The translations under genes were made by a program, and so were the position numbers. DNA of 64,000 nt from NCBI RefSeq assembly GCF_014132355.1, contig NZ_BLZO01000109.1, forward strand, positions 62,001 through 126,000, read 5' to 3'. The notes under the pieces were generated by a model. It saw only the letters and a program-made list of their open reading frames with translations. It was not told the DNA's origin and ran no database searches. Numbering within the stretch: position 1 is the first letter of the stretch; each line of letters begins with the position of its first letter. The DNA comes from Okeania sp. KiyG1 (lineage in GTDB: Bacteria > Cyanobacteriota > Cyanobacteriia > Cyanobacteriales > Microcoleaceae). This document shows positions 56,094 to 61,016 of the stretch, piece by piece.

Positions 56094-56846
56094 ATATCAA
56101 AATTCAAAATTCAAAAGTCAAAAGTCAGTAGGGGCGAATGGCCATTCGCCCCTACAAAAGCGAGTGCTAATTGGCGAGGTTTCTATTTCCTGCGGAAAGG
56201 CTACGTCAACAGAATGTAAGACGCACTAAAGACAGTCAAAAGTAATCTCTGACTTACTTTCACCATTTAGTATTGCCCTAACCTAATTGTGTAGTGCCAC
56301 ATATCTCTGGGTTAAAAAAGGCTAAAGATGAAAATTTATCAAGAAATTTAGGGGGTTTTTAACGACCCTCTAAATTCTGGCGCTTCACGTTTTGATTGAG
56401 ATTTAAATTGAGATTCTTTTTTTCTTCTCTGATATCAATCTAATTAGGGTTTACTGAATTAAAGTCTTTTGGTAGGGGTAGGAGTCAGGAGTCAGGAGAA
56501 ATGGAAATTATAGAGGAGGTAGTCGGAAAAATTGTCTCTTGATTTTTCTGCTATAATCGTCCCAAAATACTAGCTTTTTGAGTTTTTTCCACTGAAAAGC
56601 TGGCACTTTTTGAAACAAAAAAATGCTACAACCTCTACCTGTCAATGGTTTGATATTTAATTAGCAAGCCCTAATTACTCTATAGCAAATAATGGGTTCG
56701 TTAGTACATAGAATGAGAATAAACCGTAAGACAGGAAAATATTTCCCACCGTTCCCTGTTCCCTGTTCTCTGCTATAACAATTATTCCTCCTTCCTACTC
56801 CTGATAACTGATAACTGATAACTGATAACTGAAATTACTCCTTCTT
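56094..56846. other. Spacer with repeats, no gene
   Basis: Contains the palindrome GGGGCGAATGGCCATTCGCC (56131-56150), the 4-bp-TSD mini-transposon (56446-56672) and GATAACTGATAACTGATAAC repeats (56804-56830). Confidence 0.65.
56446..56672. mobile_element. Mini-transposon, AGGGTTTGCTGAAT family
   Basis: Left end AGGGTTTACTGAATTAAAG, right end TTTAATTAGCAAGCCCT. AATT flanks both sides (56442-56445, 56673-56676). The interior is closely related to 8011-8246. Confidence 0.75.
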
Positions 56847-57692
56847 CTATTGATGAAATAACATAGTTATTAAAGGGAAAAAATTTAACAATACCCAACT
56901 CCAAAACCAGTAATTATTTTGTTGTATAGAAAAATCTGGTTCCGCTAACAACGCATCAATTCTTTCCGTCAAACGGTTAGGGGGAGTGGTACAACTAAAT
57001 GCCGCAGCAAAATTAGCTGTCTGAGTTAAACGATCGCTCACCATTAACAACAAAGTCTCCGCCAATAATAATCCATCAACTTGTTTTCTTGCCCACCGAT
57101 CGGCACGAACTTCTCGAAGAGTCAAAAGTTCATGCCACAACATTTCAGTCTTTGGTAAAAAAGGCGCAATTTTTCCTAACCAACCTAACCAAAAAAAACA
57201 AAAATTATCTCGATAATAATAATGTGCTTGTTCGTGATTTAAAACTGCATAAAGTTGATCGGAATTTAATCTTTCTACAAGTCCTTTACTAACTACTAAC
57301 TGAGAATTCCAAAAGCCTATTTGGGCACTAAATAAAATAGGATTATCCAGTAAACGCACTGATTTACCCTCAATAATTATCTGAGGATAATTATTCACCT
57401 TTTGTACAGACCGCCAACCTTGATAACCTAAAATCAAACCTAAAATAGCTGTCCATCCACAAAAGCTCCAGGCCAATAAATAACTAAACCATCCAGTAGA
57501 TAGTCCAAGCATTTCTCCTTGATGACCCATACAAATAACTGCAATGGCCGTTGTAATCAATATTATGGGAGGAGAAATAAATAACAGCAGCGATCGCTCC
57601 CAACGTTGGCCCCAATTAGATGGAGCAAAAAAGTCAGCTTTTCTGAGACCATAAGATAGGCCAATAGCTGCCAAAATAATAATGAGGTGCAT
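56847..57692 (-). CDS. petP: BlaR1-type (M56) membrane metalloprotease, PetP-like
   Basis: 281 aa. Two N-terminal membrane spans (HLIIILAAIGLSYGLRKADF; LLLFISPPIILITTAIAVIC), a third near 75-95 and a C-terminal span (NYWFWSWVLLNFFPLITMLF) surround a zinc-protease domain with HEQAHYYYRDN (HEXXH motif) and a downstream EVRADRWA glutamate. It lacks the penicillin-sensor domain of BlaR1. In Synechocystis, PetP degrades the BlaI-type regulator PetR when copper is present. The start overlaps the petR stop (TAATG), so it is the second gene of a petR-petP operon divergent from petE. Assignment as PetP rests on family plus this context. Confidence 0.85.
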   Translation of the reverse strand: MHLIIILAAIGLSYGLRKADFFAPSNWGQRWERSLLLFISPPIILITTAIAVICMGHQGEMLGLSTGWFSYLLAWSFCGWTAILGLILGYQGWRSVQKVNNYPQIIIEGKSVRLLDNPILFSAQIGFWNSQLVVSKGLVERLNSDQLYAVLNHEQAHYYYRDNFCFFWLGWLGKIAPFLPKTEMLWHELLTLREVRADRWARKQVDGLLLAETLLLMVSDRLTQTANFAAAFSCTTPPNRLTERIDALLAEPDFSIQQNNYWFWSWVLLNFFPLITMLFHQ

Positions 57693-58114
57693 TATGGTTT
57701 CTCCTCCCTAACTTTGCGTATAGCTTTTAGCTTTTCGGCGATCGCTTCTATTTGTTTGATACTAGCAGAATCTAGACTATCCGCAAAAGAGGCCACCAAA
57801 TCTGGGTTTCCCACTTCCAGAAATTTATTTAATTGTTGATGCGCTTTTAACATTTGAGCTTCTCGACGAGAAATTAAAGGTCGCCACACAAAAGCACGCT
57901 CACTTTCATCACAAACTAACCAACCCTTTTGAGTCAGGCGACGTAGCACTGTAGTTACTGAAGTATAAGCTAGTTCTCGGTCAGGGTCAGCCAGAATATT
58001 TTCATGTACCTGTTTAACTGTGGCACAACCTAATTTCCAAACAATATTCAAAATCTCTGTTTCCAGAGGGCCTAAAGACATTTGTTGTGGACGGTGATCT
58101 GGTAAAGAACTCAT
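57692..58114 (-). CDS. petR: BlaI/CopY-family regulator, PetR-like
   Basis: 140 aa. Winged-helix DNA-binding domain: GPLETEILNIVWKLGCATVK, VHENILADPDRELAYTSVTT, VLRRLTQKGWLVCDESERAF, then a C-terminal dimerisation helix region with the likely protease-sensitive linker (LDSASIKQIEAIAEKLKAI). In Synechocystis, PetR represses plastocyanin and activates cytochrome c6 when copper is scarce, and is destroyed through PetP when copper is available. Here petR lies head-to-head with petE (215-bp spacer) and overlaps petP, which strongly supports the same role. Confidence 0.87.
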   Translation of the reverse strand: MSSLPDHRPQQMSLGPLETEILNIVWKLGCATVKQVHENILADPDRELAYTSVTTVLRRLTQKGWLVCDESERAFVWRPLISRREAQMLKAHQQLNKFLEVGNPDLVASFADSLDSASIKQIEAIAEKLKAIRKVREEKP

Positions 58115-58188
58115 TATTTTTTATTTCTTAGATTTTGACAACACAGTAGGTAAAATTTATCCTTTTTTCTGGTAAATTATTTAAGTAT

Positions 58189-58199
58189 GACAATCTGTC
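58189..58199. promoter_or_regulatory. Candidate PetR operator in the petR-petE spacer
   Basis: GACAATCTGTC, followed by GTTT: arms GACA/TGTC around three bases. It lies 75 bp upstream of petR and 130 bp upstream of petE. The same element (one centre base different) occurs at the petJ promoter. PetR as the binder is inference. Confidence 0.65.
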
Positions 58200-58281
58200 G
58201 TTTTACGATTAAAAATCTCCAGAAATTAGATTTTCACCCTGAGATAATCAGGGTTTCAGGTTTTTTCGGAGATATCTATTG

Positions 58282-58287
58282 TATAAT
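58282..58287 (+). promoter_or_regulatory. Likely petE -10 box
   Basis: TATAAT lies 42 bp before the petE ATG, with a weak TTTTTT-type -35 region near 58259-58265. A ribosome-binding site AGGAG (58320-58324) precedes the ATG. Confidence 0.55.
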
Positions 58288-58329
58288 GACCCGTGAATAC
58301 ATAATCATCTTAAAAAAACAGGAGTAAAA

Positions 58330-58731
58330 ATGCGTTTTATTTCTTCACTTTCTAAGTCTGTAGCACTACTAGCTTCTGTAGCAATGCTAGTTATTGGTAG
58401 TCTAGTATTTTCTCATCCAGCACAAGCCGCAAACTATGAAGTAACAATGGGTGCTGGTGGACTACAATTTAGTCCCAGGAAAATAGCTGTTAAACCAGGT
58501 GATACAGTTACATTTAAAAATGGTATGCTCGCACCTCATAATGTAATGTTCAATTCTGGTAACTCACCAGATTCAGATCTAGCCAAATCACTTTCCCACA
58601 AAAACTTGGCCTATAAAGCTGGAGAAAGCTTTGATGTAAATATTCCAGCAGATGCTGAGTCTGGTGATTACGAATTTTTCTGTACTCCTCACCGTGGAGC
58701 AGGAATGGTGGGCCATATGGTTGTAGAATAA
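58330..58731 (+). CDS. petE: Plastocyanin precursor
   Basis: 133 aa. Signal peptide of about 34 residues (LSKSVALLASVAMLVIGSLV, cleavage after HPAQA) directs it to the thylakoid lumen. The mature type-1 copper protein has ligands His in LAPHNVMFNSG, then Cys, His and Met in FFCTPHRGAGMVGHMVVE. It carries electrons from cytochrome b6f to photosystem I (and to cytochrome oxidase) when copper is available. It is divergent from petR-petP, and the alternative carrier gene petJ lies 1.9 kb downstream beyond an inserted tnpB element. Confidence 0.97.
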   Translation: MRFISSLSKSVALLASVAMLVIGSLVFSHPAQAANYEVTMGAGGLQFSPRKIAVKPGDTVTFKNGMLAPHNVMFNSGNSPDSDLAKSLSHKNLAYKAGESFDVNIPADAESGDYEFFCTPHRGAGMVGHMVVE

Positions 58732-58823
58732 TCGCAGAACTTAAGTGTGAGAAACTACTTTAAATTTGCTTTACTGTAGTTTATCAAGGTAATCACAAGA
58801 ATACTTGTTCTTGTGCAAATTAG

Positions 58824-60120
58824 TGACATACTCCCACACTAAGCAGGCGCTATAGTGTGGGCTTCTCGTTTCGCAGCCCCGGTATCCCGTCGGGCAAGCG
58901 CGTGCTTTAAGGACGGAATGCCCTGCCGCCCTATTTTTGATATTGATCGCCGCGTTCAAATCGCGGTCTATTACAATACCGCAATGTGGGCAACAATGAG
59001 TTCGCATGTTTAATTCTTTATCGACTTTTTCACCACAATTTGAGCAATCTTGGCTAGTATTTTTGGGGTTTACTGCTATAGTCTTCTGTCCAGCATTTGC
59101 CTCCTGCGGAGGAGCTGCGCTAACAGCTTTGACATTTAAAATAGACAGGAATTGTCCCCATCCAGCATCGTTAATTGATTTACTCAAACGAGTCTTTGTT
59201 AGCCCTTTAATGTTTAAGTTTGCCTCCGGCACGCCGCGCTCCGCGTCTACATGGGCGATAACTTCTGCTTTTGATAACAATTCATTGGCTGTTTTGAAAT
59301 GAAAATCTTTACGTTTATCGGCAACCTTTTTATGTTGTTTAGCTACAGCTAGAAGAGCTTTGAGCCACCTTTTACTTCCTTTTTTCTTTCGAGATAAACG
59401 TTTCTGTAGAATCTTTAATCGCTGCTGAGAAGAGCGATAGTATTGAGGGATGGGAACAGATTCTCCTTCACTTGTTACTAAGAATTCCTTCAGTCCCATA
59501 TCAATTCCCAGAGTGTTTTTTAATGTAGGTTCAACTTCACAACTCAAAGCTGGAACTGATTTTTCTTCTAGGGATAAAGTCAGATAATAACCATCTGCTT
59601 TACGACTAATCGTCACAGTTTAAGAGTGAAAACCATCAGGTAACGGCCGATGTTGAATCAACTTTATCTTGCCTATTTTGGGCAAGTTGATCTTGTTTTC
59701 TTGAATGCAGTCTTGCTTGATTTGAGGATAAGTAAAACTGCGGTAACGCCCTTTTCCCTTAAACCTTGGTTTCCCTAATTTATGTCCATTTTTGTCTGCC
59801 TTAAACCATCTATCAAAGGCAAGTTTTACCCGTTTTATGCAATCCTGTAAAACCTGAGAATGTATCAACTTGTACTCAGGAAACTTGTCTTTGGTATTGA
59901 CCAAATCTTTTTTTTGAGAGTAATAATCTGGATTATCTCTGAGTTGAGGAATTGGCACCACCAAGGGACAAGCGTTAACCGGACAGCGATTTTCTGACCA
60001 CCATGAGAACCGCTCGCCTAACCGATAGTTGTACTGCCGACGCAACAATTCCAACCACATTTCTATGATGGCTATTTGTTCTTTGTTGGGCCTTAATTTA
60101 TATTGGTAGCCAGTGCGCAT
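58824..60120 (-). pseudogene. tnpB: TnpB (IS605 OrfB) with a nonsense codon and in-frame repeat inserts
   Basis: From ATG 60120 (MRTGYQYKLRPNKEQIAIIE) the frame runs 166 codons to a TAA at 59617-59619, then continues in the same frame as [20 protein letters not shown]. RuvC-I is [18 protein letters not shown] (Asp), the zinc ribbon [12 protein letters not shown]...CPHCG and Ruv[16 protein letters not shown]. The RuvC-II Glu motif, normally V-E-D/N-L-N-I-K-G-L, is broken up as [18 protein letters not shown] by an insert of about 27 bp (59221-59250). A second 27-bp insert (59098-59124) adds VSAAPPQEA after NVKA. Inactive as a nuclease is the likely state. Confidence 0.85.
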
Positions 60121-60290
60121 GGTGGAAAATTTCCAGGGCTATTGCAAGATAATCATACAAGTTTTTCAACTAGGGCGAAAGCTTCTGCTGGGATAGTATG
60201 CAAATTGAATGGGCATCGAACCCATTCAATTGGCCACCTATTCATCTCACACTTTTCTTTAAAATTATGGTGTGAGATGAATCGGCGGTT
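58824..60290 (-). mobile_element. IS200/IS605-type element (tnpB only) between petE and petJ
   Basis: The right end on the minus strand finishes in AGCCCACACTATAGCGCCTG and TAGTGTGGGAGTATGTCAC. The left end contains the long hairpin ATTCATCTCACAC/GTGTGAGATGAAT (60239-60282). No tnpA is present. Ends are approximate. Confidence 0.7.
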
Positions 60291-60671
60291 TAGCTAAAAA
60301 TTTCTCTGCCACAAGTGTTAATAAATTCCACAATTAATTCTTGTGATTTAGATATTTTAGAGGGAGAATAATTATTTTTATTATTAATAAAGCAGTGGCA
60401 GGAAAGGTGAGGGCAGTTCAAAAGTTCAAAACTCAGACATCGTTAAGAATTTTCCTTATTCCTTCTTTCTTCTTCCTTAGTTCCTTCTACTATAAAGCAC
60501 ATTAAAGCATCAGTACAAATTAAAAATGTAGCATTCAAAACTATTCGATCGTGATTAATTTTATTTTTATGTTTGACAAGCTGTCGTTTGACTTAATATA
60601 AAGGTGCAATTTACAATCTACAACGCAGATTTAATAATTTTCTGTATTTGTATTCAGAGAGGAGAACTAAA
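60291..60671. other. petJ upstream region
   Basis: Contains a TTCCTTCTTTCTTCTTCCTT tract (60450-60490) and the petJ promoter. No gene. Confidence 0.6.
60573..60602 (+). promoter_or_regulatory. petJ promoter with candidate PetR operator
   Basis: TTGACA (60573-60578), 18-bp spacer, TATAAA (60597-60602). The palindrome GACAAGCTGTC (60575-60585), followed by GTTT, overlaps the -35 box and matches the petR-petE spacer element except for the central base. Confidence 0.65.
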
Positions 60672-61016
60672 TTGAAAAAATTACTATCAATTGTGGTATT
60701 GGCCATAGCTTTCTTTGTTGTTGCTGTACAACCCCCCGCTTTAGCTGCAGACTTAGCTCATGGAAAGCAGATATTTGGAGCTAATTGTAACGCTTGCCAT
60801 TTGGGAGGTAAGAATACAATCATGCCAATGAAAAATCTGAAAAAGGAAGCCTTAGTAAAATACCTTAAGGACTTTGAAGCAAAAGGTGTAGAAGCGATCG
60901 CCTATCAAGTAACAAATGGTAATGGAGGAATGCCAGCTTTCAAAGGTCGTCTCAAACCTAAGGACATTGAAGATGTTGCAGCTTATGTTCTAGATCAAGC
61001 TGATAAATGGAAATAA
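60672..61016 (+). CDS. petJ: Cytochrome c6 precursor
   Basis: 114 aa from the TTG at 60672, chosen because AGAGAGGAG lies 8 nt upstream and the N-terminus is then a clean signal peptide ([20 protein letters not shown], cleavage after PALAA); an in-frame TTG at 60648 would add eight charged residues. The mature protein has the haem motif CNACH and axial Met in [12 protein letters not shown]. It is the iron-containing alternative to plastocyanin, carrying electrons from cytochrome b6f to photosystem I in the lumen when copper is short. It shares a candidate operator with petE/petR. Confidence 0.95.

Follow-up and report, generated by a model that had tools for sequence, protein, structure and literature searches.

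A predicted PetR operator before petE and petJ of Okeania sp. KiyG1: its position relative to the promoter as a likely determinant of opposite control, and its recurrence in a probable wider copper-starvation gene set

We studied two look-alike DNA sites in a 64,000-nucleotide stretch of Okeania sp. KiyG1 (contig NZ_BLZO01000109.1, positions 62,001 to 126,000; hereafter the window), one between petR and petE (plastocyanin) and the other upstream of petJ (cytochrome c6). Both are probable binding sites of the PetR copper switch, which pairs the BlaI-type regulator PetR with the membrane protease PetP. Comparison with other cyanobacterial genomes made it quite likely that the shared motif is the PetR operator and that the direction of control depends on where the motif sits with respect to the promoter. 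At petJ and at further copper-starvation genes a polar box, with its palindrome just upstream of a TTTGAC -35, would make PetR a class II-type activator; at petE a palindrome that covers the -35, or falls between it and the -10, would make PetR a repressor. With copper present PetP would remove PetR, leaving petE on and petJ and the other genes off; in the absence of copper PetR would stay, petE would be off and petJ and the others on.

The sequence GACA-N3-TGTC-GTTT occurred at 58189-58203 and again at 60575-60589, the copies differing at one base, as a sequence-only reading of the window had reported (14 of 15 bases equal). The predicted box core is GACAATCTGTC at 58189-58199, 85 base pairs (bp) from the petR start and with its near edge 131 bp from the petE start, and GACAAGCTGTC at 60575-60585 on the plus strand upstream of petJ, the latter supported by comparison with relatives and with genomes having a PetR match (PetR+). 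A search of 292 genomes of the phylum for PetR, petE and petJ was followed by a reading of upstream regions; the petE and petJ counts cover the genomes whose regions were read, those for petJ from among the matches listed (in one, G207, the petJ upstream region stops at the contig end). The exact core GACA-N3-TGTC lay no farther than 300 bp from petE in 43 of the 78 PetR+ genomes read for that gene, against 0 of 21 without a PetR match (PetR-); for petJ, at the same distance, the counts were 49 of 78 PetR+ and 0 of 29 PetR- genomes. The sequence-only reading had proposed a shared PetR operator and had named a lack of enrichment before petE and petJ as what would overturn it; the proposal, which stays a prediction, came through this comparison.

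The sites upstream of petJ were longer than the core, reading AAGTTTGACA-N3-TGTC-N-TTTGAC, i.e., TTGACA-N3-TGTC-N-TTTGAC (the extended box). With up to three mismatches in the 16 fixed bases, this box preceded petJ in 72 of 78 PetR+ genomes (38 exact), always oriented toward petJ, and in 2 of 29 PetR- genomes; TTTGA was present in 48 of the 50 exact-core petJ sites. In the window the third element, TTTGAC (60587-60592, plus strand), was conserved in 9 of 9 aligned relatives and holds the start of the likely petJ -35 (TTGACT, 60588-60593), followed 18 bp on by the likely -10, TACAAT (60612-60617, plus strand), whose offset is kept in petJ promoters and relatives. A -10 was scored by its offset from the box as a hexamer whose second base is A and whose sixth is T. 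At offset 36/37 it was found in all 30 petJ promoters that remained after 48 genomes were thinned to a non-redundant set, the best other pair of offsets giving 11 of 30; the same pair, 36/37, held in 64 of the 72 petJ sites within three mismatches. Box-linked targets other than petJ scored 24 of 27 at 36/37 (best other pair, 9); of 24 petE promoters 3 scored there, the peaks being 18 at offsets 22/23 and 15 at 32/33. The sequence-only reading had set the site over the petJ -35; the box more likely abuts that element from upstream, its TTTGAC tail being the -35 with 17/18 bp to the -10. Because the -10 lies 17/18 bp past the tail, the box centre would fall near -44, an activator position. Judged on the predicted elements, the spacing would suit class II-type activation, in which the site adjoins the -35 and is centred between about -41 and -44, in 30 of 30 petJ promoters and in 24 of 27 others.

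At petE the box likely overlaps the -35, a repressor position. Five relatives lacking the insert described below carried ATGAC[AG] inside the box, 16 bp from TATAAT (L238, L239, L241 and L242) or TCTAAT (L240). By comparison with them, ATGACA at 58187-58192 (plus strand) is the candidate -35 of the window, and by alignment TATAAT at 58282-58287 (plus strand) is the likely petE -10, the relatives having TATAAT, TAGAAT, TAAAAT or TCTAAT. Extended boxes stood near petE in 13 of 78 genomes, 12 of them oriented away from petE, and the petR-petE box of the window is itself an extended box with two mismatches. Among ten related Okeania, Trichodesmium and Hydrocoleum records (L233-L242) the petE-side core was exact in eight, L241 and L242 having one core change each. 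The GTTT tail given to this site by the sequence-only reading was present in the window and in L233-L237, not in L238-L242.

The spacer site noted in that reading is real; what the reading lacked is that, because of an insert, the conserved -10 lies 93 bp downstream from where the box starts. This hairpin-forming insert of about 75 bp (58206-58278 on the plus strand, limits approximate, drawn from alignment with relatives; fold -25.2 kcal/mol, z -3.8) was present in the window and in L233-L237, that is, in five of six Okeania records, and in none of L238-L242, the sixth Okeania record (L239) included. Three further partial matches to it, 73-90% identical, lay elsewhere in the genome (contigs C103, C72 and C131). 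Control of petE has probably changed in the clade of the window, the box being displaced from the -10 by the insert; petE may have escaped PetR control, or its transcription may begin before the insert and give a structured leader.

It is also possible, though we find it the less convincing account, that the box of this clade now serves petR, the insert having displaced it from petE. Its distance from petR is 83-89 bp in 9 of the 10 relatives; from petE it is 58-61 bp away where the insert is absent and 131-132 bp where it is present. This autoregulatory role is weakened by the finding that 9 of 36 petR upstream regions had an extended box within three mismatches, none of them directed toward petR, and by a -10-like sequence near 58210-58216 that could still provide a PetR-controlled petE start. 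The same counts led us to reject petR autoregulation as what the box does in general, and petR upstream regions, which the sequence-only reading had proposed to scan beside those of petE and petJ, are not generally a target.

The extended box at strict promoter distance probably marks a wider copper-starvation gene set than the four genes reported. Exact copies numbered 53 in 42 of 145 genomes of the class, against 1 site for a backwards control, and all 42 genomes had a PetR match, as compared with 94 of 145 overall (Fisher 2.5e-10); in one of the 42 (G353) the petR frame is interrupted by a stop. In a set of 243 genomes of the order, few of which were tested for PetR, 106 had the extended box (backwards control, 1), and no exact copy was found in the eight known to be without a PetR match. 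We read 101 distinct boxes, covering part of the order-set sites, and labelled targets with reference proteins drawn from the same set: petJ 26 (two of these labels being weak, a 39% match to a 64-amino-acid open reading frame (ORF) in L268 and a 35-amino-acid match in L274), TonB receptors 18, DsbD_2/ferric-reductase-like proteins 8, a histidine-rich family 7, PepSY_TM 6, MbnP 3, YcnI 2 (one gene with two boxes), DUF2231 2, L269-like 2, CydA 1, ABC ATPase 1 and unlabelled 25. In the last group, reading of the sequences themselves suggested five slr0601-type genes, two ExbB, one TonB and one MbnH-like, leaving 16 with no recognised target. TonB receptors were thus the commonest target after petJ; one matched Cir and BtuB chains. 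One box-linked protein matched MbnP/TIGR04052 above the cut-off, and the CydA gene (L258) starts about 317 bp from its box. Box-linked genes adjoined petR in several genomes, e.g., G295, G312, G319 and G306.

The sequence-only reading had called the locus a self-contained regulon, a description contradicted by extended boxes before other genes both in other cyanobacteria and in this genome. Besides petJ, exact or one-mismatch boxes preceded here an ABC ATPase gene (C142, about 157 bp) and a gene for a histidine-rich protein of 157 amino acids (C97, about 61 bp); at a further box, on C130, no ORF was found. Sites in this genome were counted to one mismatch only, since at two mismatches the 6 matches were near background and the control was nearly as frequent (4).

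Two of the target families are described here in their own right. One joins a DsbD_2-like membrane domain to a ferric-reductase-like one (L253, L284, L285 and L292) and is found in 92 of 145 cyanobacteria and often linked to a PetR box. The other is a secreted histidine-rich family with a GHAHLYIN-type motif (L280:965-1438), lying beside petR, petJ or the DsbD_2 gene in several genomes; it gave no Pfam or NCBIfam match above cut-off and a single match, at E 0.89, in a PDB sequence search. Three histidines (H102, H104 and H141 in the L304 frame) were invariant in 26 of 26 aligned members, which is compatible with metal binding.

Both families had first been found through their boxes, and only previously unseen members count as independent. 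Among histidine-rich orthologues (44 of 145 genomes, 30 loci read), a box within 700 bp and three mismatches was present in 16 of 26 PetR+ and 0 of 4 PetR- genomes; for DsbD_2 orthologues (92 of 145 genomes, 30 loci read), the figures were 13 of 28 and 0 of 2. In this scoring one locus (L338, from G048) counted as a miss although L285 shows its box. All 29 orthologue boxes were oriented toward their gene. Best matches in resampled sequences averaged 5.0-6.3 mismatches, with single minima of 2 or 3.

A second check came from genomes G076 and G093 of genus g8, each with two exact extended boxes, one of them at petJ. The other lay 69 bp before a gene of 126 amino acids followed by one of 138, with TAGGAT at the -10 offset downstream, and this pair was flanked by a 326-amino-acid thioredoxin-reductase-like gene and dnaE, with lepA next. 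The dnaE product has 897 amino acids in L398 and its end matches the split-intein structures 1zd7 and 1zde. We take genus g8, from this DnaE ending in a split intein, to be Synechocystis, and the gene order presumably to be that of slr0600, slr0601-slr0602, slr0603 and slr0604. The slr0601-slr0602 pair, which had no part in defining the motif, belongs to the published PetR targets (PMC12382314), and a commentary counts among these targets two proteins of unknown function, naming Slr0602 (PMC7896320).

A third set comprised PetR+ genomes with petJ and no petE match (G039, G129, G131, G197 and G203). Four of the five (G039, G129, G197 and G203) were without a petJ box, against 2 of 73 PetR+ genomes with petE (Fisher 5e-5). 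Boxes stood elsewhere in these petE-less genomes: at the DsbD_2 gene in G039, at a TonB receptor in G129, at two extended-box sites in G203 and, in G197, in the spacer beside petR, oriented toward a PepSY_TM-like gene.

A narrower regulon, in which PetR controls petE, petJ and slr0601-slr0602 alone and the remaining boxes are either accidental or operators of a different BlaI-type regulator, seems improbable. It would agree with the four genes published for Synechocystis (PMC7896320) and with the two boxes each of G076 and G093, and some genomes do have further BlaI-type genes; five of the 16 boxes with no recognised target had no ORF of at least 60 amino acids within 450 bp. Against it stand the single control sites in 145 and in 243 genomes, the PetR match of every one of the 42 box genomes, the recurrence of families such as TonB receptors, the shared -10 spacing (24 of 27) and the box genes lying beside petR. 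Sites of fixed spacing and polarity, dependent across genomes on the presence of PetR, recurred before the same gene families.

Still less likely is that the petJ box is a repressor site, with PetR sitting over a -35 at 60573-60578 (TTGACA) paired with TATAAA at 60597-60602, an arrangement implied by where the sequence-only reading had put the site. This near-consensus pair, with a spacer of 18, can be drawn in the window; its -10 is not kept in L238-L242, on which ground the pairing was rejected, whereas the downstream pair is kept in 9 of 9 aligned relatives despite a spacer change of one base in some. All 30 petJ promoters fit the downstream pair, and PetR activates petJ in Synechocystis (PMC7896320).

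Coincidence was considered last. The motif GACANNNTGTC was found twice in the window against 0.57 expected, a count of two or more being reached in 11 of 100 shuffles, and the 15-base pattern had three copies in the 11-megabase genome against two for the backwards control; from counts within this genome alone chance is therefore not excluded. The third copy, on C53 (L001), was rejected as a target, no convincing gene adjoining it. A chance origin of the 15-base likeness is nevertheless hardly credible, because two of the three copies lie within 2.4 kilobases (kb) before petE and petJ, both keep their positions in relatives, and distant PetR+ genomes, unlike PetR- ones, again have the core upstream of these genes.

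Several points weigh against the reading of the box as a position-dependent PetR operator with a wide gene set. The support is that of sequence throughout. The genomes are related, and the Fisher values (2.5e-10 and 5e-5) overstate independence. The -10 test behind the scores of 30/30 and 24/27 uses two bases, its offsets were picked after the petJ profile had been seen, the non-petJ sequences had been viewed beforehand, and loci with no assigned target were excluded. Near petE the one-mismatch core has a high background (64 of 78 PetR+, and also 7 of 21 PetR- genomes), the petE -10 positions are of two kinds, making the repressor layout less uniform, and the petE site of the window breaks the petE rule. 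In PetR+ genomes no more than 16 of 26 histidine-rich and 13 of 28 DsbD_2 orthologues have a box nearby. Two PetR- genomes, G060 and G070, retain degenerate petJ boxes; both have petE and petJ, and they may have lost PetR recently. Two more members of g8, G014 and G080, lack an exact extended box; those at their petJ genes carry one mismatch.

In Synechocystis PetR is a repressor of petE and an activator of petJ, and copper leads to its degradation by PetP (PMC7896320, PMC13421787, PMC12292863, PMC10141476 and PMC13183708). The cause of these opposite effects was called unknown in a 2021 commentary (PMC7896320), and box position could explain them. From the comparisons above we infer PetR binding of the sites, the promoter elements, the class II contact and the copper response of the added genes. 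With somewhat less assurance than for the operator, we favour PetR as a general copper-starvation regulator of cyanobacteria, whose position-read operator would repress plastocyanin and activate copper-free substitutes (cytochrome c6, joined perhaps by cytochrome bd oxidase in one genome) along with a set of copper-scavenging genes; where plastocyanin is missing, petJ would leave the regulon and PetR would stay for the scavenging genes. That set would include TonB receptors, ExbB/TonB, PepSY_TM proteins, the DsbD_2/ferric-reductase fusion, MbnP, YcnI and the secreted histidine-rich family. In Trichodesmium erythraeum, iron shifts the transcripts of plastocyanin and c6 in opposite directions (PMC12090762). 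The passages of the literature covered gave neither a PetR box sequence nor a wider regulon; the original 2021 PNAS study fell outside this coverage and may show the box. The positional rule offers a direct and cheap test of how one regulator turns petE off and petJ on, the wider set names candidate cyanobacterial copper-uptake genes and predicts that PetR does more than control petE and petJ, and the petE and petJ promoters are in use as copper-controlled tools.

The genes named by the sequence-only reading were borne out. On the minus strand, petP (56847-57692; weak Peptidase_M48 match, 5.1e-06) encodes a BlaR-type membrane protease with HEQAH, the HExxH motif of such proteases, and overlaps petR (57692-58114; Penicillinase_R, 4.9e-30), of the BlaI/CopY family. 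The best NCBIfam match of PetR was CopY_TcrY at 44.1 bits, below the cut-off of 121.95; its orthologues in PetR+ cyanobacteria were strong, 49-74% identical, which places it in the PetR group, and it was the only match in the genome at E 1e-5. PetR was 83-94% identical to that of the ten records L233-L242, in which petP, adjoining petR, was 76-94% identical over 281 amino acids. The plus strand carries petE (58330-58731; TIGR02656 above cut-off) and petJ (60672-61016; NF045930 PetJ equivalog above cut-off). The petJ start (60672-60674) is TTG in the window, L233, L234, L236 and L237, and ATG in L238-L242. That petJ follows petE was correctly seen; overlooked was a TnpB-like transposase gene (58771-60120, minus strand) with an in-frame stop at 59620-59622, which occupies most of the petE-petJ spacer and whose two pieces, searched separately, matched OrfB_IS605, Cas12f1-like_TNB and HTH_OrfB_IS605. 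In Trichodesmium (L241) another TnpB gene stands in this spacer, with 45-52% identity over the longer of the stretches that matched. All ten records had petP, petR and petE together and nine had petJ beyond petE, the tenth (L235) being a short contig; the compact locus is ordinary for the clade of Okeania, Trichodesmium and Hydrocoleum. The Hydrocoleum record (L238) carries an additional, incomplete petR and, beside the box in its petR-petE spacer, a long insertion; in the window a short tandem repeat with a GATAACT unit (56800-56835) lies 3' of petP.

Garcia-Canas et al. in 2021 reportedly described PetR/PetP (slr0240/slr0241) as the copper switch of Synechocystis. The window has the same protein pair, the same two photosynthetic targets, predicted to be under opposite control, and, as in a PetRP system, candidate operators at both, the sites being inferred by sequence and that of petE displaced by the insert. 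Two Synechocystis-like genomes have the box at the remaining published targets as well. Unlike the published account, with its four genes, the box here marks more genes in other cyanobacteria, whether control is positive or negative is linked to where the box lies, and petE of the window carries an insert. CopY/TcrY and BlaI/MecI-BlaR1/MecR1 likewise belong to the Penicillinase_R family and have a membrane protease partner, PetR being a weak sequence match to MecI structures. The CopY/TcrY and BlaI/MecI regulators are repressors with a short palindromic operator, whereas the box described here is polar, has TTTGAC as a third element and shows a predicted activator layout. IacT of Anabaena is a TonB-dependent iron/copper transporter raised in copper shortage (Nicolaisen et al. 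2010, cited in PMC8141849, where the passages covered draw no link to PetR); it resembles the commonest non-petJ box targets by class. The copper-binding MbnP family was matched by one box-linked protein.

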